NCBI GenBank assembly: GCA_913057775.1
Contig: CAJXOG010000004.1
Location: 124,001 to 188,000, forward strand
Reading direction: 5' to 3'
DNA from: an uncultured Fodinibius sp.
GTDB lineage: Bacteria; Bacteroidota; Rhodothermia; Balneolales; Balneolaceae
DNA: 64,000 nt
In this document: positions 31,267 to 41,190 of the stretch, in pieces
Layout of the letters: every line of letters begins with the position of its first letter
Numbering within the stretch: position 1 is the first letter of the stretch
The notes under the pieces: generated by a model
What the model saw: only the letters and a program-made list of their open reading frames with translations
What the model was told of the DNA's origin: nothing
Database searches by the model: none
Position numbers and translations under genes: made by a program

Positions 31267-32616
31267 TTAACTTTTAAGAGCGGGACATTTGTCCATAACA
31301 GATTTAATGGACTTTTGTATAATATCCATTCCCTCATCGATCTGTTGGTTGTTAACCGTAAGCGGCGGACGGAAACGCATGGTTTGTTCACCACACGAAA
31401 GAATCATTAGGTTATTATTGAAGCACTCTTTGATGACCGAATCGCGTGCGTGGGTATTTGGAAAGTCAACGGCACAGAAAAGTCCTTTTCCACGTGGATT
31501 CGTTACATGTTCAAACTGATCGGATAGAGTCTCGATTTTATTCTGCAGATAATTTCCAACGGTAGCAGCATTCTTAACAAGATTATCTTCTTCAATTACT
31601 TGTAAAATACGACCGAATCGAACCATATCTACCAAGTTGCCACCCCAGGTTGAGTTGATGCGTGAGGAAACGTGAAAGCAGTTTGTCTCGATATCATCGA
31701 CGCGCTTGCTGGCAAGAATACCGCATACTTGAGCCTTTTTGCCAAACGCTAAAATATCGGGCTTTACATAGTGTTCGTGTGCCCAGAATTTACCTGTGAG
31801 TCCGACTCCGGTTTGTACCTCATCATAAATGAGCAGCGCTTCGTGTTTATCTGCCAAATCTCTTAGTGCTTGATGAAACTCCTTCCGAAAATGACGATCG
31901 CCGCCTTCTCCTTGAATAGGCTCGAGAATGATACAGGCGATTTCATCTTTATATATCTCAAAATAACGCTCTGCTTGAGCGATAGCCCGCTCCTCATCTG
32001 CTATTGTTTTTTGAATGCGTTCTTCTGTAGCAGGATAGGTCATGGCCGGTGAAATGATTCGGGGCCAGTCAAATTTCGGGAAATACTTTACTTTTTTGGG
32101 ATCAGTATTGGTCAATGACATCGTATATCCGGTGCGCCCGTGAAATGCCTGTTCGAGATGGAGGACTTTATGTCCTTTTTCCTGGCGATAGCCCTTTTGG
32201 AAATTCTTTTGCACTTTCCAGTCAAAAGCAACTTTTAGCGCGTTCTCAACGGCCAGTGCTCCACCGGAGATAAAGAAGGAGTAGGGTAGATAATCGGGAA
32301 TGCCGACACGATCAAAATTGTCCACAAATTCGGCCATCTCTTCGGTATAAACATCCGAGTTCGACGGTTTGTTGATTGCCACTTTTCCAATTTTATTGCG
32401 GAACTCTTCATTTGCCAGTTGTGGATGGTTCATTCCCAGAGGATTGGAGGCAAAAAAGGTAAAGAAATCCAGGTAGCGTTCTCCCGTTTTCGCATCGAAT
32501 AAATGTATGCCTTCACTCTTTTCAAGATCGAGCACAATATCGTAACCGTCGGTTAAAATATGTTTTTGTAATACATCGTGTACTTGTGCGGGAGCAACTG
32601 TGTTATTCGTGGACAT
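31267..32616 (-). CDS. lat: L-lysine 6-aminotransferase
   Basis: A 449-aa class III aminotransferase with the distinctive pattern of lysine epsilon-aminotransferases: FFTFFASNPLGMNHP at 51-65, INKPSNSDVYT near 81-91, ILEPIQGEGGDRHFR, and the PLP lysine K293 within AFGKKAQVCGI. The reaction passes the epsilon-amino group of lysine to 2-oxoglutarate, giving 2-aminoadipate semialdehyde (cyclising to piperideine carboxylate). This starts lysine breakdown. No dehydrogenase for the next step is adjacent; the aldehyde dehydrogenase at 14329-15690 is a distant candidate. The ornithine aminotransferase gene lies on the same strand beyond a tRNA gene. Confidence 0.92.
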   Translation of the reverse strand: MSTNNTVAPAQVHDVLQKHILTDGYDIVLDLEKSEGIHLFDAKTGERYLDFFTFFASNPLGMNHPQLANEEFRNKIGKVAINKPSNSDVYTEEMAEFVDNFDRVGIPDYLPYSFFISGGALAVENALKVAFDWKVQKNFQKGYRQEKGHKVLHLEQAFHGRTGYTMSLTNTDPKKVKYFPKFDWPRIISPAMTYPATEERIQKTIADEERAIAQAERYFEIYKDEIACIILEPIQGEGGDRHFRKEFHQALRDLADKHEALLIYDEVQTGVGLTGKFWAHEHYVKPDILAFGKKAQVCGILASKRVDDIETNCFHVSSRINSTWGGNLVDMVRFGRILQVIEEDNLVKNAATVGNYLQNKIETLSDQFEHVTNPRGKGLFCAVDFPNTHARDSVIKECFNNNLMILSCGEQTMRFRPPLTVNNQQIDEGMDIIQKSIKSVMDKCPALKS

Positions 32617-32885: not shown

Positions 32886-34121
32886 TTAGGCAGTGACTTT
32901 TGTGTAGGCATGAATGGTATCTCTAATAATTGAGATACAATCCTGCAGCTGTTCTTCAGTCATAACAAGTGGCGGTGCAAACCGGATGATATTACCATGA
33001 GTAGGTTTGGCAAGCAGTCCGTTTTCTTTCAGCTTTAGACAAATATTCCATGCTGTCTTGCTGTCTTCAGAATCGTTAATGACGATAGCGTTCAGGAGCC
33101 CTTTGCCGCGCACAAGCTTTACCAGTTCTGATTCTTCCACAAGGTTGTTCATTTCTTCTCTGAAAATTTTCCCAAGCCTAACAGCGTTTTCAGCCAAATC
33201 TTCATCTTCTACCACTTTAAGTGCTTCCATGGCCACGGCACATGCCAATGGATTTCCGCCATAGGTTGAGCCGTGTTCACCGGGCCGTAAGCATTCCATG
33301 ATGTCATCATCAGCCATTACTGCCGAAACGGGATAAGCACCACCGGAGAGAGCTTTCCCCAAAATTACAATATCAGGGCGCACATTTTCGTGATCTACAC
33401 ACAGCATCTTACCTGTTCGTGCTATGCCCGTTTGAATTTCATCAGCAATAAACAGTGTGTTGTATTTTTTGCATAATTCGCCGGCCTTTTTAAGATAACC
33501 ATCATCGGGAACGACAACACCGGCTTCGCCTTGGATAGGTTCTACCAGAAATCCGGCCACATCTTTCTCTTGTAATGCTTCCTCGAGGGCATCCAAATCG
33601 TTATATGGAATAGAAACGAAGCCTGGGGTATAAGGACCAAAATTTTTGCGAGCAACCGGGTCGTTGGAAAATGAAATAATACTGGTTGTTCGTCCGTGGA
33701 AATTGCCTTTGGCAACAATGATCGTTGCTTTTTCAGGGGTCAGGTTTTTCTTTTCGTATGACCATTTTCGGCAGAGTTTAATAGCCGTTTCAACACCTTC
33801 GGCCCCTGTATTCATGGGCAAAAGCTTGTCATAACCAAACAGATCATGCATATATTTTTCATAAGCTCCAAGCTGGTCGCTGTGGAAAGCCCGGGAAACC
33901 AAGTTCAGCTTTTCGGCATGTTCTTTTAATGTGTTAATAATTCTTGGATGGCAATGTCCCTGATTTACGGCCGAGTATGCAGACAGAAAATCGTAATATT
34001 TATTTCCTTCCGGATCCCAAACATAAACTCCTTCGCCTTCAGATAATACAACCGGTAGGGGATGATAATTATGTGCGCCATATTGATCTTCGAGTTCTAT
34101 AGCTTGGGAAGTTGAAATCAT
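32886..34121 (-). CDS. rocD: Ornithine delta-aminotransferase
   Basis: A 411-aa class III aminotransferase. The signature [15 protein letters not shown] at 45-59 is specific for ornithine aminotransferases; Y49 matches the tyrosine that selects ornithine in the human enzyme. PLP lysine is K256 in [18 protein letters not shown], with the acidic ADEIQTG pair before it. The enzyme converts ornithine and 2-oxoglutarate to glutamate semialdehyde (pyrroline-carboxylate) and glutamate, linking arginine/ornithine and proline metabolism. Together with the lysine 6-aminotransferase and the ornithine/alanine-racemase-like gene at 36721-37794 it suggests active use of basic amino acids. Confidence 0.95.
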
Positions 34122-34715: not shown

Positions 34716-34748
34716 ACCCTTGAGTGTAATAACTCAAGGGTATTTTTT
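34716..34748 (+). terminator. Intrinsic terminator after the bactofilin gene
   Basis: ACCCTTGAGT (34716-34725) pairs perfectly with ACTCAAGGGT (34732-34741) around a 6-nt loop. ATTTTTTATT follows. Confidence 0.85.
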
Positions 34749-34789: not shown

Positions 34790-36274
34790 ATGCATTGGAT
34801 TGACCTGACGATCTTTCTCCTATATATGATAGGAATGTTGGGATTTGGCGTCTTTTTCCTTCAAAGAAATGAAGGTGCCGATGATTATTATGTGGGCGGA
34901 CGTAATATGAACAGTCTACATATTGGCCTTTCTGTTGTTGCAACTGATGTAGGTGGGGGATTTTCCATCGGATTAGGTGGCCTTGGTTTTGTGATGGGCT
35001 TATCTGGTTCCTGGATGCTTTTTACCGGTTTGCTCGGAGCCTGGTTAGCAGCTGTTTTTCTTATCCCAAAAGTAAAAGGGAACTCCGTTTTTGATAAAGC
35101 TTTTACCTTTCCCGAAGTATTTGAGCATTACTTTACCCCACGAGTAGCGCTTGTTGCAGGTATTATTTCTGCGATTGGCTATGCCGGCTTTACAAGCTCA
35201 CAGATTTTAGCTGGGGCCAAGTTGGCTACCGGCACTTTTGCCGATCTCGATCTGCAAACGGCGTTAATTATCATGGGGTCTGTGGCCGTTATCTATACCG
35301 TAATGGGCGGACTTAAAGCTGTTATTTACACCGATACGGTGCAATGGACGATTCTTATGATCGGACTCATTTTTATCGGCATTCCTATTTCCTACACAGC
35401 TGTTGGCGGGTGGGAAGCGATTTCCAAAACGGTTGATCCCGCATTACTTTCGATGACCAATATTTCTTGGCAGGATGTGATATATTGGACCGTGACAATT
35501 ATCCCCATCTGGTTTGTTGGTATGACACTATACCAACGAATTTATGCCTGCAATGATGAACAGACTGCTAAACGTGCGTGGTACTTGGCCGGTGTTTTTG
35601 AATGGCCCATTATGGCTTTTATGGGCGTTTCGCTTGGGCTTTTTGCGAAAGTGGGTGCCGAACAAGGCATGTTTGCATATTTGGGCGCTGCCGATGTATC
35701 TGAAACCGATCCTGAAACCGGCCTGCCGATGTTGCTTCGTACGGTATTACCCGTCGGGCTTATGGGGATTATGATGAGTGCTTATTTCTCGGCTATACTT
35801 TCCACCGCAGACAGTTGTTTAATGGCGGCATCCGGTAATGTAGTTTCCGATATTATTGGGTATTTTAGAGATATTGATCATGATAGCGATACCTTTTTGC
35901 GGTTTTCACAGATCACAACACTTGTACTCGGAACATTTGCTCTCTTGATTGCTACAACAATGACGAATGTGCTTGACTTGATGCTTTATTCTTATGCGTT
36001 TATGGTATCAGGGCTTTTTGTTCCGATTATTGGCGCTTTATATTGGCCAAAGAGTAGCAGTATAGGTGCCATAGCCGCTATGATTTTCGGTGGTTCAACT
36101 ACGGTCTCATTAGAGTTATTTATGGAAAATCTACCGGCCGGGTTAGATGCTAATGTTTTTGGAATTACGGTATCGGCTATTGTGTTTATTGCCGTTTCGT
36201 TGGCCTTTCCTGATGAAAATACCGAGAATATGACTAGTAAATCAGTAGACAATGTTAATGCTATAAATCAATAA
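34790..36274 (+). CDS. Sodium:solute symporter family protein
   Basis: A 494-aa inner-membrane transporter of the SSS family (LeuT fold, about 13 helices). It opens with a hydrophobic helix, then the family motif GADDYYVGGRNM near 29-40, a glycine-rich GGGFSIGLGGLGFVMG segment, and ends of helices carrying the conserved sodium-site region ILSTADSCLMAASGNVVSDI at about 337-356. SSS members bring sugars, amino acids, acylated sugars or organic acids in with sodium. The substrate is best read from the genes that follow: a GNAT one base later, a racemase-like enzyme, a peptidase, an amidohydrolase and an alanine racemase. I infer an amino-acid derivative. Confidence 0.88.
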   Translation: MHWIDLTIFLLYMIGMLGFGVFFLQRNEGADDYYVGGRNMNSLHIGLSVVATDVGGGFSIGLGGLGFVMGLSGSWMLFTGLLGAWLAAVFLIPKVKGNSVFDKAFTFPEVFEHYFTPRVALVAGIISAIGYAGFTSSQILAGAKLATGTFADLDLQTALIIMGSVAVIYTVMGGLKAVIYTDTVQWTILMIGLIFIGIPISYTAVGGWEAISKTVDPALLSMTNISWQDVIYWTVTIIPIWFVGMTLYQRIYACNDEQTAKRAWYLAGVFEWPIMAFMGVSLGLFAKVGAEQGMFAYLGAADVSETDPETGLPMLLRTVLPVGLMGIMMSAYFSAILSTADSCLMAASGNVVSDIIGYFRDIDHDSDTFLRFSQITTLVLGTFALLIATTMTNVLDLMLYSYAFMVSGLFVPIIGALYWPKSSSIGAIAAMIFGGSTTVSLELFMENLPAGLDANVFGITVSAIVFIAVSLAFPDENTENMTSKSVDNVNAINQ

Positions 36275-36717
36275 TGATTGAATTTGATTTAGTACACTCT
36301 GATATCGAAAATCCGACGACATTCAGTCGAGAGGATATTGCTAATTTTCTTTACGAGCATCTGGATGAATATGGAGATGAAAAGAAACATATTTTGTCGT
36401 CTATTGCCTATGCTTACGGAGATGGAGAAGGACAGGATGGATTTATATTAGTTGCTCACGAAAAAGATCAAATTGTGGGAGCTGTTATTATTAATCATAC
36501 CAATATGGGAGGATTTATTCCCGAACATATTTTGGTGTATATTGCCGTACATGGCGATTACCGCGGTGAAGGACTTGGCAAAGATTTGATGGAGCATATT
36601 ATTGATGCAACAGAAGGAGATATTGCGTTGCATGTTGAGCCCGATAATCCCGCCAAATATCTGTATGAGAAATACGGGTTTACGAACAAATATCTTGAAA
36701 TGCGACTGAGCAAATAG
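36274..36717 (+). CDS. GNAT-family N-acetyltransferase
   Basis: A 147-aa acetyltransferase of the GNAT fold. The acetyl-CoA loop is HGDYRGEGLGKDLMEHII at about 90-107 (R/Q-x-x-G-x-G/A), preceded by the strand ILVYIAV and followed by HVEPDNPAKYLYEKYGF, the usual last elements. Its ATG shares one base with the stop codon of the symporter gene (TAATG), so the two are translated together, and the racemase-like gene begins 3 nt after it. The acceptor is not predictable. Acetylation of an imported amino acid or amine, to be reversed or used by the amidohydrolase further down, is inference from context. Confidence 0.85.
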   Translation: MIEFDLVHSDIENPTTFSREDIANFLYEHLDEYGDEKKHILSSIAYAYGDGEGQDGFILVAHEKDQIVGAVIINHTNMGGFIPEHILVYIAVHGDYRGEGLGKDLMEHIIDATEGDIALHVEPDNPAKYLYEKYGFTNKYLEMRLSK

Positions 36718-36720
36718 GGA

Positions 36721-37794
36721 ATGGCCTATTTAAAATTATATAGAGACAAGCTTCGTCATAATTATAACTATCTGGATACCCTTTTTAAGGACAATGATAT
36801 CAAGTGGGGCATTACCACCAAGCTACTCTGCGGGCATGAAGAATACTTGAAGGAGGTAGCTGATTTAGGGATTGGAGAGATGCTGGATTCTCGCATCAGC
36901 AATCTTAAAAAGATTAAAGAGATCGATCCCAATACGCTTACCACCTATATCAAGCCGCCGCCCAAAGATATTATTGATTCTGTGGTAAAGTATGCCGATG
37001 TGAGCCTGAATACGGAGCTATCAACGCTGCACGCCCTGTCAGAAGAAGCCCAGAAACAGGATAAGGTCCACAAGGTTATCATTATGATTGAGTTGGGTGA
37101 TCTGCGCGAAGGAGTGATCCGTGAAAATCTGATCGATTTTTATGAGAAGGTATTTAGGCTGTCGAATATTGAAGTGATCGGCATTGGGGCAAACCTGAAC
37201 TGCATGCATGGGGTGATGCCGGATGAGGATAAACTCATTCAACTATCACTGTATAAGCAGATTATTGAACTACGCTTCAATAAAGAAATTCCACTGGTAT
37301 CAGGAGGCACCACGGTTACTATTCCTCTGCTTTTGCGGAACCAGCTGCCAAGCGGCGTTAATCACTTTCGAGTGGGGGAGGCACTTTTCTTTGGGAAAAA
37401 TCTATTTACCGATGGCACTATTGAAGGGATGCACAATGATGTGATGGAGCTGTATTCTCAAGTCATTGAAATTGCCGAAAAGCCCAAAGTGCCGAGCGGA
37501 GAACTGGGTATGAATCCCCAGGGCGAAGTGGCCGATATTGATAAAGAAGAATATGGGAAAACCTCATATCGGGCTATTCTGGATATCGGTTATCTCGATA
37601 TTAATCCTGATCATCTCATTAATATGGATGATAATGTAAAAATTGCCGATGCCAGTTCAGATATGCTCATTTTGGATGTCGGTGATAATAAAGCCGGATA
37701 CGAAGTGGGTGATTTTATCCGTTTTCGCATGAAGTATATGGGCGCATTAGGGATCATGAATTCTGATTACATTGATAAAATAGTCGAAGAGTAA
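36721..37794 (+). CDS. Alanine/ornithine racemase-family PLP enzyme
   Basis: A 357-aa protein with the alanine-racemase-type TIM barrel. PLP lysine is K34 in GITTKLLCGHEEYLKE, which replaces the canonical VKANAYGHG, and the phosphate-binding loop LVSGGTTVT is near 195-203. The pattern matches the group of ornithine racemase-like enzymes that interconvert L- and D-ornithine or related amino acids. It is larger than the YggS group and has a C-terminal beta domain from about residue 240. It begins 3 nt after the GNAT gene. With ornithine aminotransferase encoded 2.6 kb away, ornithine is a reasonable substrate, though alanine and others remain possible. Confidence 0.8.
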   Translation: MAYLKLYRDKLRHNYNYLDTLFKDNDIKWGITTKLLCGHEEYLKEVADLGIGEMLDSRISNLKKIKEIDPNTLTTYIKPPPKDIIDSVVKYADVSLNTELSTLHALSEEAQKQDKVHKVIIMIELGDLREGVIRENLIDFYEKVFRLSNIEVIGIGANLNCMHGVMPDEDKLIQLSLYKQIIELRFNKEIPLVSGGTTVTIPLLLRNQLPSGVNHFRVGEALFFGKNLFTDGTIEGMHNDVMELYSQVIEIAEKPKVPSGELGMNPQGEVADIDKEEYGKTSYRAILDIGYLDINPDHLINMDDNVKIADASSDMLILDVGDNKAGYEVGDFIRFRMKYMGALGIMNSDYIDKIVEE

Positions 37795-37905
37795 TTTAGA
37801 GACATATCTCCCTTGTAATATTTGAAGTTGGATAATAGTTTAGGAGAGAATTTTATCCACTGCTAACTAAGGCCTATCTATCCTGAAAATATTTGAGGAA
37901 CTGTA

Positions 37906-38502
37906 ATGAAAACATATTCCGATTATAATTTTGCCAAAATAATGGATTATCCCGATAACAGGGATGAGCTATTTGTATTTGATTTTACCAAAGGATATGA
38001 TACCGACTTTATACGGTCAAAAGAGTGGGGTATTGGTAAGTACAACGAAAAGCGCTCAAATATGTATTTGGAATCGATGTATAATAATGAGCGCAATGTG
38101 CATATGGGAGTTGATATTTGGACTCAATCGGGAGCACCGGTTTTTTCATTTTGGGATGGGATAGTTGCTTATATTCAGAATAATGATCAGCCTGGGGATT
38201 ACGGTCCCACGATGGTAATTAAATACGAGCTGAATGATTCCCCCCTCTACGCTCTTTACGGACATTTGTCTAAGGAATCGCTTACAATGGTTTCGATTGG
38301 GCAAGAAATAAAAAAAGGACAGAAAATAGCCACGCTTGGCGGTGAACAAGTGAACGGCGGGTGGGCGCCTCACCTCCATTTTCAGCTTTCGGTAGAAGAT
38401 CCCCAAGAAGCCGATATGCCTGGCGTTGTAGCAGCTGAAAATGGGGAGGAGGCTTTACGAACCTATCCCGATCCCAGAATAGTGCTGGGAAATTTGTATT
38501 GA
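37906..38502 (+). CDS. M23-family metallopeptidase without signal peptide
   Basis: A 198-aa protein with the zinc-site residues of LytM/M23 endopeptidases: H66 and D70 in HMGVD, H120 in LYGHLS, and H156 and H158 in HLHFQL. Only the peptidase domain is present. There is no signal peptide, membrane helix or cell-wall-binding domain at the N-terminus, so the protein should be cytosolic, which is unusual for a family that normally cuts peptidoglycan stem peptides outside the cell. It lies 111 nt after the racemase-like gene. It could hydrolyse imported muropeptides or small Gly-rich peptides. Secretion by a non-classical route is the alternative. Confidence 0.85.
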   Translation: MKTYSDYNFAKIMDYPDNRDELFVFDFTKGYDTDFIRSKEWGIGKYNEKRSNMYLESMYNNERNVHMGVDIWTQSGAPVFSFWDGIVAYIQNNDQPGDYGPTMVIKYELNDSPLYALYGHLSKESLTMVSIGQEIKKGQKIATLGGEQVNGGWAPHLHFQLSVEDPQEADMPGVVAAENGEEALRTYPDPRIVLGNLY

Positions 38503-38513
38503 AATGATAATTC

Positions 38514-38590
38514 GTTGCTCGAGAGTACAACTCTCTCGCAACTTGGGGGAAGAGTTTCTACTTTTAGTTTTGAGGGAGTTGTACTCCCGA
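38514..38590. repeat. Paired hairpin repeats, locus 1 (order A-B)
   Basis: Hairpin A at 38514-38542 has outer arms GTTGC/GCAAC and inner arms GAGAGT/ACTCTC around ACA. Hairpin B at 38574-38588 is GGGAGT-TGT-ACTCCC. Both recur with few changes at 41124-41190 in the opposite order. They lie between the M23 and M20 genes, with no T-run after either. Confidence 0.65.
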
Positions 38591-38691
38591 AGAACTGAGA
38601 ACTGAGAAATAGGGCAGAATAATGATTGGAAATTCTGCTTGAAAATCCACTAATTGTGCCTTGCATAAATTGTTATTTAGGAATTTTCGGC

Positions 38692-39855
38692 ATGCCCTCC
38701 AATTTTGATATAAAAACACATCTGCCCGAGCTACAAAAGCTACGCCACCGGTTACATGCTGCGGCTGAAGTATCTGGAGAGGAGCAAAAAACAGCAGAAA
38801 TTATCACTGATTTTTTATCAGCTACCAGTCCCGATGAGTTGCAGAAAAATATTGGTGGGCACGGATTGTTAGCAACCTATGATTCTGAAGAACCCGGGCC
38901 ACATGTATTGATTCGCTGTGAGCTTGATGGATTGCCAATATCGGATAAGATCGAAGCCGACTACGAATCTGAAACAGACGGCGTCGGTCATAAGTGCGGT
39001 CACGATGGACACATGGCTGTTGTTGCCGGTGTGGCAAAACTTTTGGGAAAGCAGCAATCGCGAGCGGGAAAGGTGACACTGCTCTTTCAACCGGCTGAGG
39101 AAACCGGGGAAGGGGCAGCACGTGTAATTCAAGATTCGCAATTTCAGAATTTATCCCCTGATTATTATTTTGCCCTTCATAACTTGCCGGGGTTTCCAAA
39201 ACACCAGGTTGTTGTCAGAAATGATACCTTTGCTGCAGCCTCGGTAGGACTGATTATTCGTTTTGAAGGAGCGACAGCTCATGCCGCTCATCCCGAAGAA
39301 GGAAATAGCCCGGCGTTGGCAGTGGCACAAACCATCCAGTCATTTTCGGCAGTTCCGCAATTTCAGGTGCCGTTGGAAAAATCCGCCAAAGTAACCGTCA
39401 TTCATGCTGCGTTGGGAGAGCGTGCTTTTGGAACCTCCCCGGGTAACGGTACGGTAATGGCAACGCTACGAACTTATGAAGATGAGCTGTTAGCAAAGCT
39501 GAAAGATCACTGCATCCAGATAGCAGAAGGATATGCCGATACGTTTGATCTCGGGATTGATGTTGAGTGGGTTGAGGAGTTTCCTGCCACGGTAAATAAC
39601 GCTGAGGCAGTGAAAATAATTGAGGCCGCAACGGATAAAGCAGGATCTGAAATTTATCATAAAAAAGAGCCGTTTAGCTGGTCGGAAGATTTTGGTCATT
39701 TTACCAAGAAGTATAAGGGTGCAATGTTTGGATTGGGGGCAGGAAAGAATCATCCCGCTTTGCATGCTCAGACCTATGACTTTCCCGATGAAATTATAGC
39801 TACCGGCATTTCAATGTTCATGCAAATTATAAACGAAACGATTGACAGGTCATGA
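38692..39855 (+). CDS. M20-family amidohydrolase (N-acyl-amino acid hydrolase)
   Basis: A cytosolic zinc enzyme of 387 aa from the ATG at 38692; an open TTG 66 nt earlier adds a non-conserved 22 residues and is rejected. Family motifs are LRHRLHAAAEVSGEE, the metal region VGHKCGHDGHMAV, FQPAEETGEGAARVI and, in the last third, WSEDFGHFTKKYKGAMFGLGAG. This is the hippurate hydrolase/aminoacylase subgroup, which removes acyl groups from amino acids. Its last four bases overlap the alanine racemase start (ATGA), a strong sign that both act on the same compounds, for example an N-acyl-D-amino acid that is deacylated and then racemised. Confidence 0.9.
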   Translation: MPSNFDIKTHLPELQKLRHRLHAAAEVSGEEQKTAEIITDFLSATSPDELQKNIGGHGLLATYDSEEPGPHVLIRCELDGLPISDKIEADYESETDGVGHKCGHDGHMAVVAGVAKLLGKQQSRAGKVTLLFQPAEETGEGAARVIQDSQFQNLSPDYYFALHNLPGFPKHQVVVRNDTFAAASVGLIIRFEGATAHAAHPEEGNSPALAVAQTIQSFSAVPQFQVPLEKSAKVTVIHAALGERAFGTSPGNGTVMATLRTYEDELLAKLKDHCIQIAEGYADTFDLGIDVEWVEEFPATVNNAEAVKIIEAATDKAGSEIYHKKEPFSWSEDFGHFTKKYKGAMFGLGAGKNHPALHAQTYDFPDEIIATGISMFMQIINETIDRS

Positions 39856-41024
39856 ATCACGAGTTATATCCTTCATGGATTGAATTAAGCAAGCAGGCCT
39901 TTGAGAAAAATATCACTTTTTTGAGGGATTACATTGGCAAAGACACAGTGTTTAGCTCTGTTATTAAGGGAAATGCTTATGGACACGGCATAGGTCATTT
40001 TGTACCGATGGCGGAGAAATGCGGTGTTCGTCACTTTTCGGTTTTCAGTTCAGATGAAGCACGTCAGGCTGCTCGGGCAAGCACGGAGGAAGATACTCAT
40101 ATTATGATTATGGGTATGATAAATAATAAAGCACTGGGATGGGCTATAGAGCGTGATATCTCGTTCTTTATTTTTGAATTGGATCGTCTTAAAAATGCAG
40201 TTATGGAAGCAGAGCGCATTGGGAAGCCGGCGCGGATTCATCTCCATCTCGAAACAGGAATGAATCGACTGGGATTGGAAAAAGACAAGTTTGAAGAGGC
40301 TGTGCGCATAATCAAAGAGAATAGTCGACATCTGCAGGTGGATGGGTTATGCACCCATTATGCCGGGGCAGAAAGTGTAAGTAACTATGTGAGAATTCAG
40401 GAACAAATTGAGAATTTTGAAGAATACTGTACTTGGTTTGAAGATCAGGGTGTTGAAGCCAAACATCACCATACCGCCTGTTCGGCCTCGGCACTAAATT
40501 ATCCGGAAACGATTATGGATTTAGTTCGTTTTGGGATTTCACAGTACGGTTTTTGGCCAAACCGGGAAACCTATATGAATTTTGTAAAAAAGCACCCAGA
40601 TATTAGCAAGGAGCATAAAGATCCCCTGGAGCGAGTCATGAGCTGGAAAAGCAGGGTGATGAGCATTAAAGAGGTTGCAGCCGGTGAATTTGTGGGCTAT
40701 GGAAATGTATATTTGACTAATCGCGATGAGAAAATTGCCAGCATTCCCATTGGCTATTCCCAGGGATTTGCCCGAAACCTTACGAATGTGGGCATTGTGC
40801 TCATTAATGGTCAACGCGCACCAGTTACAGGTCTTGTTAATATGAATTTGCTCAGCGTAGATATAACAGATATTTCTGACGTGGACAAAGGCGATGAGGT
40901 AGTAATTATTGGCAAGCAAGGCGAACAGGAGATGACAGTTTCGTCTTTCAGTAATATGAGAGATAACCTGAACTATGAAGTGCTGGTACAGATACCGTCT
41001 CGCATTCCACGAAGTATTGTTTGA
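39852..41024 (+). CDS. alr: Alanine racemase-type enzyme, catabolic candidate
   Basis: A 390-aa fold type III PLP enzyme. K39 in SVIKGNAYGHG binds PLP, and the second catalytic residue is the tyrosine of VGYGNVYLT. The usual GYADGYPR reads GYSQGFAR, and the usual RxCMDQ region reads LVNMNLL, so the substrate pocket may differ from a housekeeping racemase. The gene overlaps the amidohydrolase gene by 4 bp. A second gene with fully canonical racemase motifs begins at 63786, so this copy is probably dedicated to catabolism or to another amino acid. Broad-specificity racemase is a fair alternative name. Confidence 0.88.
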   Translation: MNHELYPSWIELSKQAFEKNITFLRDYIGKDTVFSSVIKGNAYGHGIGHFVPMAEKCGVRHFSVFSSDEARQAARASTEEDTHIMIMGMINNKALGWAIERDISFFIFELDRLKNAVMEAERIGKPARIHLHLETGMNRLGLEKDKFEEAVRIIKENSRHLQVDGLCTHYAGAESVSNYVRIQEQIENFEEYCTWFEDQGVEAKHHHTACSASALNYPETIMDLVRFGISQYGFWPNRETYMNFVKKHPDISKEHKDPLERVMSWKSRVMSIKEVAAGEFVGYGNVYLTNRDEKIASIPIGYSQGFARNLTNVGIVLINGQRAPVTGLVNMNLLSVDITDISDVDKGDEVVIIGKQGEQEMTVSSFSNMRDNLNYEVLVQIPSRIPRSIV

Positions 41025-41123: not shown

Positions 41124-41190
41124 GAGGGAGTTGCACTCCCGAAAGGAAGGGCTTTAAATAGTTGTTTGAGAGTATAACTCTCTCACAACT
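41124..41190. repeat. Paired hairpin repeats, locus 2 (order B-A)
   Basis: Hairpin B at 41126-41140 is GGGAGT-TGC-ACTCCC, one base different in the loop from the copy at 38574. Hairpin A at 41160-41190 has arms AGTTGT/ACAACT and GAGAGT/ACTCTC. The B copies point the same way at both loci, but the A/B order is swapped. It lies between converging genes and may also terminate them, though T-runs are lacking. Confidence 0.65.

Follow-up and report, generated by a model that had tools for sequence, protein, structure and literature searches.

Analysis of a 64,000-nucleotide stretch of DNA from an uncultured Fodinibius sp. (the window; assembly GCA_913057775.1, contig CAJXOG010000004.1, positions 124,001 to 188,000) revealed a six-gene cluster that may be a module devoted to an N-acetylated diamino acid used as compatible solute, a reading to which we would give slightly less than an even chance. 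The host is a salt-loving bacterium with a genome of 3.1 Mb, and its nearest named relatives are Aliifodinibius/Fodinibius of the Balneolaceae. The cluster occupies positions 34790-41024 on the plus strand and encodes, in order, a Na+/solute symporter of the SSS/SSF family (SSS; 34790-36274; PF00474, E 2e-49), a GNAT N-acetyltransferase (36274-36717; PF13508/PF00583), an ornithine racemase (Orr)-like pyridoxal phosphate (PLP) fold-type III racemase (36721-37794; NF040742, 318 bits; PF01168), an M23 metallopeptidase-family protein (37906-38502; PF01551), an M20D amidohydrolase/N-acyl-amino-acid deacylase (M20; 38626-39855; TIGR01891, 224 bits) and an alanine-racemase-family enzyme (Alr; 39852-41024; TIGR00492, 275 bits). 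The first-pass annotation had described these six same-strand genes as a possible set for import and breakdown of peptidoglycan-derived or acylated D-amino acids. The open reading frames are present with their catalytic motifs intact, and Pfam and NCBIfam upheld the family assignments of all six proteins. The proposed function has to be revised: the GNAT-Orr core, and the occurrence of AblA/AblB as alternative partners of the symporter, suggest that the genes mainly serve an acetylated diamino-acid solute, not breakdown, and the cluster is probably a solute module rather than one for the digestion of cell-wall D-amino acids.

The core of the cluster is the couple formed by the acetyltransferase and the Orr-like racemase, which are near-obligate partners. 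Among 394 genomes sampled from the phylum, Orr was found in 62, the cluster-type GNAT in 61 and both in 60, with a median gap of 3 nt between the two genes. Orr occurred without GNAT in two genomes, G263, at a locus that we take for an ornithine-fermentation operon, and G404, where a DUF1611 gene lies upstream; GNAT occurred without Orr in G203 only. Within a sample of 146 genomes of the class, the cluster Alr was present in 39, all of them Orr-bearing, and a standalone M23 in 44, of which 42 were Orr-bearing. The M20 and Alr genes form a tightly coupled but optional pair; family f2 retains the Alr gene, unlinked from the cluster.

The symporter (494 aa, nine hydrophobic segments) is the most conserved protein of the cluster, with orthologs 50-97% identical. 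At a threshold of E <= 1e-125, an ortholog was found in 61 genomes of the phylum, 47 of which carry GNAT-Orr. The orthologs without GNAT-Orr are mostly found in operons together with ablA and ablB: SSS lies directly 3' of AblA in G404 and in the loci of family f27 that were read. In the best-resolved loci (L187, L195 and L185), AblA, SSS and then AblB follow one another at once, with 4-nt overlaps; where scanned (L187 and L185), both proteins exceeded their equivalog cut-offs (525 bits on TIGR03820 for AblA, 205 bits on TIGR03827 for AblB), with scores of 781 bits for an AblA and 327 bits for an AblB. The order at the f10 locus L183 is AblA-like, AblB-like, SSS, with the first two at 270 and 193 bits, both under cut-off. 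Not one of the 60 GNAT-Orr genomes has an AblB above the TIGR03827 cut-off, compared with nine of the 14 SSS genomes that lack GNAT-Orr, and two further genomes of these 14 have AblB-like matches at 190-194 bits. In the genome of the cluster itself, the best match to AblB reached 21.8 bits against a cut-off of 205.1.

The cluster SSS is 50-61% identical to the ablAB-linked copies, and the two kinds are interleaved in the tree. Two f10 copies, one of which was seen to be ablAB-linked, fall within the racemase-linked clade (100/100), which argues that the partner pair has been exchanged. Judged from sequence, then, the symporter pairs with either an aminomutase and an acetyltransferase or a racemase and an acetyltransferase. 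Since AblA and AblB produce the osmolyte N-epsilon-acetyl-beta-lysine (PMC1224877; PMC4685198), an isomerase, an acetyltransferase and SSS represent a repeated design, of which GNAT-Orr is the racemase version. The two systems share an isomerase, an acetyltransferase and an orthologous symporter in one operon; the cluster differs in having a PLP racemase for the radical-SAM aminomutase and a small GNAT for AblB, in the addition of M20-Alr and M23, and in that its carriers are without an AblB over cut-off.

In the scheme that we propose, the Orr-like racemase would isomerise a basic diamino acid, most likely lysine and possibly ornithine, much as AblA converts lysine to beta-lysine. The GNAT would acetylate this isomer, as AblB does, to yield a neutral zwitterion such as N-epsilon-acetyl-D-lysine that is unused in protein synthesis, while the symporter would serve in solute uptake or retention. 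The M20 hydrolase would strip the acetyl group and Alr would restore the L form of the free amino acid, which could be reused or broken down by lysine or ornithine aminotransferases where these are present. We infer this direction for M20-Alr, as we do the substrate, its D-configuration, the acetyl position and the osmolyte role; the tight coupling and optional presence of the pair are as expected of a turnover arm and support the module. Because PLP racemases depend on an unmodified alpha-amine, N-alpha-acyl amino acids cannot be their substrates; if the amino acid is already acetylated when it is racemised, the side chain must carry the acetyl group.

N-acetyl-lysines have been described as osmolytes or thermolytes, and N-alpha-acetyl-alpha-lysine also occurs in Salinibacter ruber, a member of the same class as the cluster host (PMC4685198). 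Beta-amino acids are well suited as solutes since they do not enter proteins (PMC1224877), a property that a D-amino acid would share. We lean against the more specific proposal of a compatible solute based on a D-amino acid (N-epsilon-acetyl-D-lysine would be one), in which a PLP racemase and a GNAT make the solute in place of AblA-AblB while a dedicated symporter transports it and a dedicated deacetylase-racemase arm recycles it. If the solute reading is true, it would assign a role to a racemase-acetyltransferase pair that is both widespread (60 of the 394 sampled genomes) and uncharacterised, and would establish a second enzymatic path to acetylated osmolytes of the lysine type, along with a candidate for the transport of acetyl-lysine solutes and a candidate route for their recycling. 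It would also suggest D-amino acids as orthogonal osmolytes in bacteria, and call for caution with the labels 'ornithine racemase' and 'alanine racemase' for the cluster proteins.

A number of observations weigh against the solute module. The co-occurrence counts are raw, with shared ancestry left uncorrected in them, and GNAT-Orr stands alone in many carriers, SSS, M20 and Alr all being absent. Of the 14 SSS genomes that lack GNAT-Orr, three have neither partner pair (Balneolaceae G015, G078 and G084; L180-L182), and their symporters are orthologs of 73-74% identity. Free lysine would fit equally well as the substrate of SSS, and the scheme assigns no role to M23. No similarity of the GNAT to AblB was detectable, and its fold search returned generic GNATs as the sole matches. 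Several named carriers are, judged by name, halophiles or metagenome-assembled genomes from saline sites; the argument from habitat is nevertheless weak, because the Balneolales are saline as a whole.

The GNAT is predicted with good confidence (pLDDT 93) to adopt the GNAT fold and retains the glycines of the CoA loop. The Orr-like protein can be placed among the PLP fold-type III racemases by its Alr-like predicted fold (pLDDT 87) and its invariant PLP lysine, K34; the best PDB fold matches were Alr, VanT, lysine racemase and BsrV (TM about 0.7-0.77), which span alanine, serine, lysine and broad-spectrum racemases, and a search of PDB sequences gave no match. It is 40% identical to the Orr of Acetoanaerobium noterae and belongs to the same family, and a gene for ornithine aminotransferase (OAT; 32886-34121) adjoins the cluster, which would fit an authentic ornithine racemase that feeds ornithine breakdown via OAT. 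We consider this very unlikely. The protein scored 318.4 bits on NF040742, under the curated cut-off of 480, while the A. noterae Orr passes with 549.6, and it carries an SSDM motif where the compared fermentation-type (L121) and DUF1611-partnered (L122) copies have SSDH; on these sequence grounds it is not an authentic Orr. No OraS/OraE-like neighbours, as recognised by eye from the sequence, were seen at the GNAT-type loci, and no aminomutase operon accompanies the cluster; such genes are present in L121 and L157. The GNAT of A. noterae gave a partial match (60% of the query) and is not linked to Orr.

A gene for L-lysine 6-aminotransferase (LAT; 31267-32616) also adjoins the cluster and, like OAT, is divergent from it. 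LAT is present in 143 of the 146 class genomes. In 24 genomes it shares a contig with Orr, and in 22 of these the two lie no more than 20 kb apart. OAT is missing from the Orr-bearing families f2, f3 and f5 and present in many genomes that lack Orr. Neither gene is therefore diagnostic, and both were rejected as cluster members; the OAT gene noticed next door in the first-pass annotation is indeed there, but is no part of the module.

A different account of the gene set is salvage of D-amino acids by an acetyl tag, in which SSS imports, the racemases convert D to L forms, and GNAT and M20 acetylate and deacetylate, much as in the N-succinylamino-acid racemase or DgcN-DgcA systems. The N-succinylamino-acid racemase pathway of Geobacillus consists of a GNAT, an enolase-type racemase and an M20 L-desuccinylase, and the cluster resembles it in holding GNAT, racemase and M20 genes together, with two racemases available. 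The DgcN-DgcA D-glutamate pathway similarly pairs an N-acetyltransferase with a racemase, a DgcN-type DUF1611 protein adjoins other Orr-family racemases, and the proximity of LAT to Orr also speaks for salvage. We nonetheless regard salvage as unlikely. The inability of PLP racemases to use N-alpha-acyl amino acids is a matter of general chemistry, and the racemases of the cluster are PLP enzymes, accompanied by an extra symporter and a second racemase in comparison with Geobacillus. Among the ten proteins scanned, six from the cluster and four from its neighbours, none had an enolase-superfamily racemase domain or DUF1611, and DgcA is likewise absent from the cluster. Moreover, many genomes have GNAT-Orr without M20, and salvage leaves AblA-AblB as alternative partners of SSS unaccounted for.

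That alternative partnership is accommodated by scavenging of acetylated lysine osmolytes released by neighbours, whereby SSS would import them, M20 deacetylate them and the racemases and LAT degrade the product. The near-universal presence of LAT in the class is in keeping with this, as is genome G082, where an M20 gene lies directly 3' of SSS and away from GNAT-Orr (L190). This explanation is less probable still, as it leaves unaccounted for the near-obligate GNAT beside Orr, and SSS-GNAT-Orr clusters without M20 exist (L101, L104, L106, L112). The view put forward at the outset, that the cluster takes in peptidoglycan-derived peptides and D-amino acids and breaks them down, appears highly improbable. 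It could draw on the intact metal site of M23, the two racemases and the fact that M20 enzymes can be dipeptidases. The cluster has no muropeptide transporter or anything else specific to muropeptides, M23 has no export signal and is mostly missing beyond the Balneolales, the nearest relatives of M23 are domains of kinase-M23-aminotransferase fusions near hydroxyproline or galactokinase genes, and the GNAT core is again left unaccounted for.

The association of the six genes was traced by a search of 84,980 species genomes, which yielded 37 loci, mostly from Balneolaceae. The six-gene order is kept in most of the 37 loci with enough flanking sequence and holds across the Balneolales; the cluster is also retained in the order-level families f3 and f5, where Orr is about 64% identical. 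Loss of the gene order even in close relatives had been named beforehand as a refuting outcome, and the order was found to be kept. Within the genus, the locus of G066 (L083) is reshuffled to M23, OAT (opposite strand), M20, Alr, SSS, GNAT, Orr. Other orders in the phylum are SSS-GNAT-M20-Alr-Orr (L103 and the Persicobacter plasmid L161), GNAT-Orr-SSS-M20-Alr (L116, L126), M23-GNAT-Orr-SSS-M20-Alr (L114), SSS-GNAT-Orr (the four loci named above and L119), GNAT-SSS-Orr (L107), GNAT-M20-Alr-Orr (L035) and GNAT-Orr alone. Order and membership thus recur in dozens of genomes and several families, which is beyond chance, and the retention of membership while order changes argues for functional association rather than inherited synteny. 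This comparison of sequences indicates that the six genes form a functional unit, and the earlier proposal that solute uptake and acetyl transfer are joined here with two racemases of the PLP type and an enzyme that hydrolyses N-acyl amino acids is borne out to that extent. A literature search found no description of the gene set, in agreement with the earlier remark that a described pathway with this gene order was not known.

The M20 gene starts with TTG at 38626; an in-frame ATG at 38692 would give a protein of 387 aa. The protein scores 223.9 bits on TIGR01891, over the cut-off of 153.75, its metal ligands C124, H126, E158, E159, H185 and H380 are invariant, and the closest solved structure is YxeP (1ysj). 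The cluster Alr scores 274.7 bits on TIGR00492 (cut-off 168), has invariant catalytic K39 and Y283 and invariant subfamily motifs KGNAYGH, AGAES and NMN, and is 26-27% identical to the other Alr of the same genome; it is probably, from these sequence features, a second, non-housekeeping enzyme of the alanine racemase family. The Asp-to-Asn change in the NMN motif was considered as a sign of broad specificity and rejected, the other Alr of the genome also having Asn there. Likewise, the position of the inner gate is variable, so the substrate cannot be read from it. A paralog (about 45-49% identity) was observed as the third gene of a conserved trio comprising an ATP-grasp gene, a gene for a ~660-aa protein and Alr (L169-L172, L174, L176; the L176 contig shows the last two genes only). 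The ~660-aa protein gave no significant Pfam or NCBIfam match, and the trio looks like an undescribed biosynthetic locus.

An M20 hydrolase followed by an Alr2-type racemase is also found in a heat-induced Salinicoccus cluster linked to accumulation of N-alpha-acetyl-alpha-lysine, and in the staphylococcal dap operon (PMC4685198); these differ in that the genes sit in a lysine biosynthesis operon, and GNAT-Orr and SSS are not described there. The Salinicoccus pair counts in favour of the solute reading. In the S-(2-succino)cysteine (scm) cluster of Bacillus subtilis, an acetyltransferase, ScmL, and an M20 deacetylase, ScmP, similarly bracket a conversion (PMC12757645), though one that uses a monooxygenase and no racemases.

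The metal site of the M23 protein is intact, with H66, D70, H156 and H158 invariant (HxxxD and HxH). As the first-pass annotation had noted, this peptidase appears to lack an export signal: no hydrophobic N-terminus was found in the window copy or its homologs. Outside the Balneolales, M23 is the least constant member. In NCBIfam it matches best to the M23 domain of PRK06148, a kinase-M23-aminotransferase fusion. Fusions of this kind, comprising APH, M23 and class III aminotransferase domains, adjoin genes of the proline/4-hydroxyproline-racemase family, DAO-type oxidoreductase, DHDPS-family and GntR-like genes in L143, L147, L153 and L155; in L145, L148, L149 and L151 they lie beside a DHDPS-family gene and, in some cases, also galactokinase. 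Hydroxylysine kinase and phospho-lyase activities are known, and the fusion neighbourhoods suggest, by reference to them, breakdown of collagen hydroxylysine; the standalone M23 may therefore be linked to lysine-type chemistry.

The spacing of the genes is tight in two blocks, as described previously: SSS and GNAT overlap by 1 nt, GNAT and Orr are 3 nt apart, and M20 and Alr overlap by 4 nt. The description of the whole cluster as tightly spaced does not extend to M23, which is flanked by gaps of 111 nt (Orr-M23) and 123 nt (M23-M20; 189 nt if M20 starts at the ATG). In family f3 every gap is <=54 nt (L078), so a compact six-gene operon exists elsewhere. No strong terminators were found inside the cluster, which together with the spacing would fit a putative single operon. 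A bactofilin gene sits between OAT and SSS, and between it and the cluster lies a terminator-like hairpin with a T run (34716-34741, plus strand), identified by consensus match only, consisting of a 10-pair stem and ATTTTTTATT. The M23-M20 gap holds a dispersed palindromic repeat (38520-38589) with GAGGGAGTTGYACTCCCG sites at 38520-38537 and 38572-38589; at <=2 mismatches this sequence has 15 sites genome-wide, including another copy 3' of Alr (41124-41141).

A second acetyltransferase-racemase couple was observed in which a DUF1611 gene lies directly upstream of, and overlaps, an Orr-family gene (L122, L160, L162, L165, L166, L167). It occurs on plasmids of Vibrio (three records), Phaeobacter and Ruegeria and in the Bacteroidota genome G404. 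DUF1611 was confirmed by Pfam for the Vibrio parahaemolyticus copy, and the G404 copy is DgcN-like, matching the NCBI model for the N-acetyltransferase DgcN under its cut-off. That racemases of one family are found next to acetyltransferases of two unrelated families suggests a coupling of racemisation to acetylation, a point in favour of the solute module. Finally, the 2.6-Mb record NZ_CP154629.1 (L157), which bears the ornithine fermentation operon, is listed as a plasmid of Acetoanaerobium noterae and is probably a chromosome.

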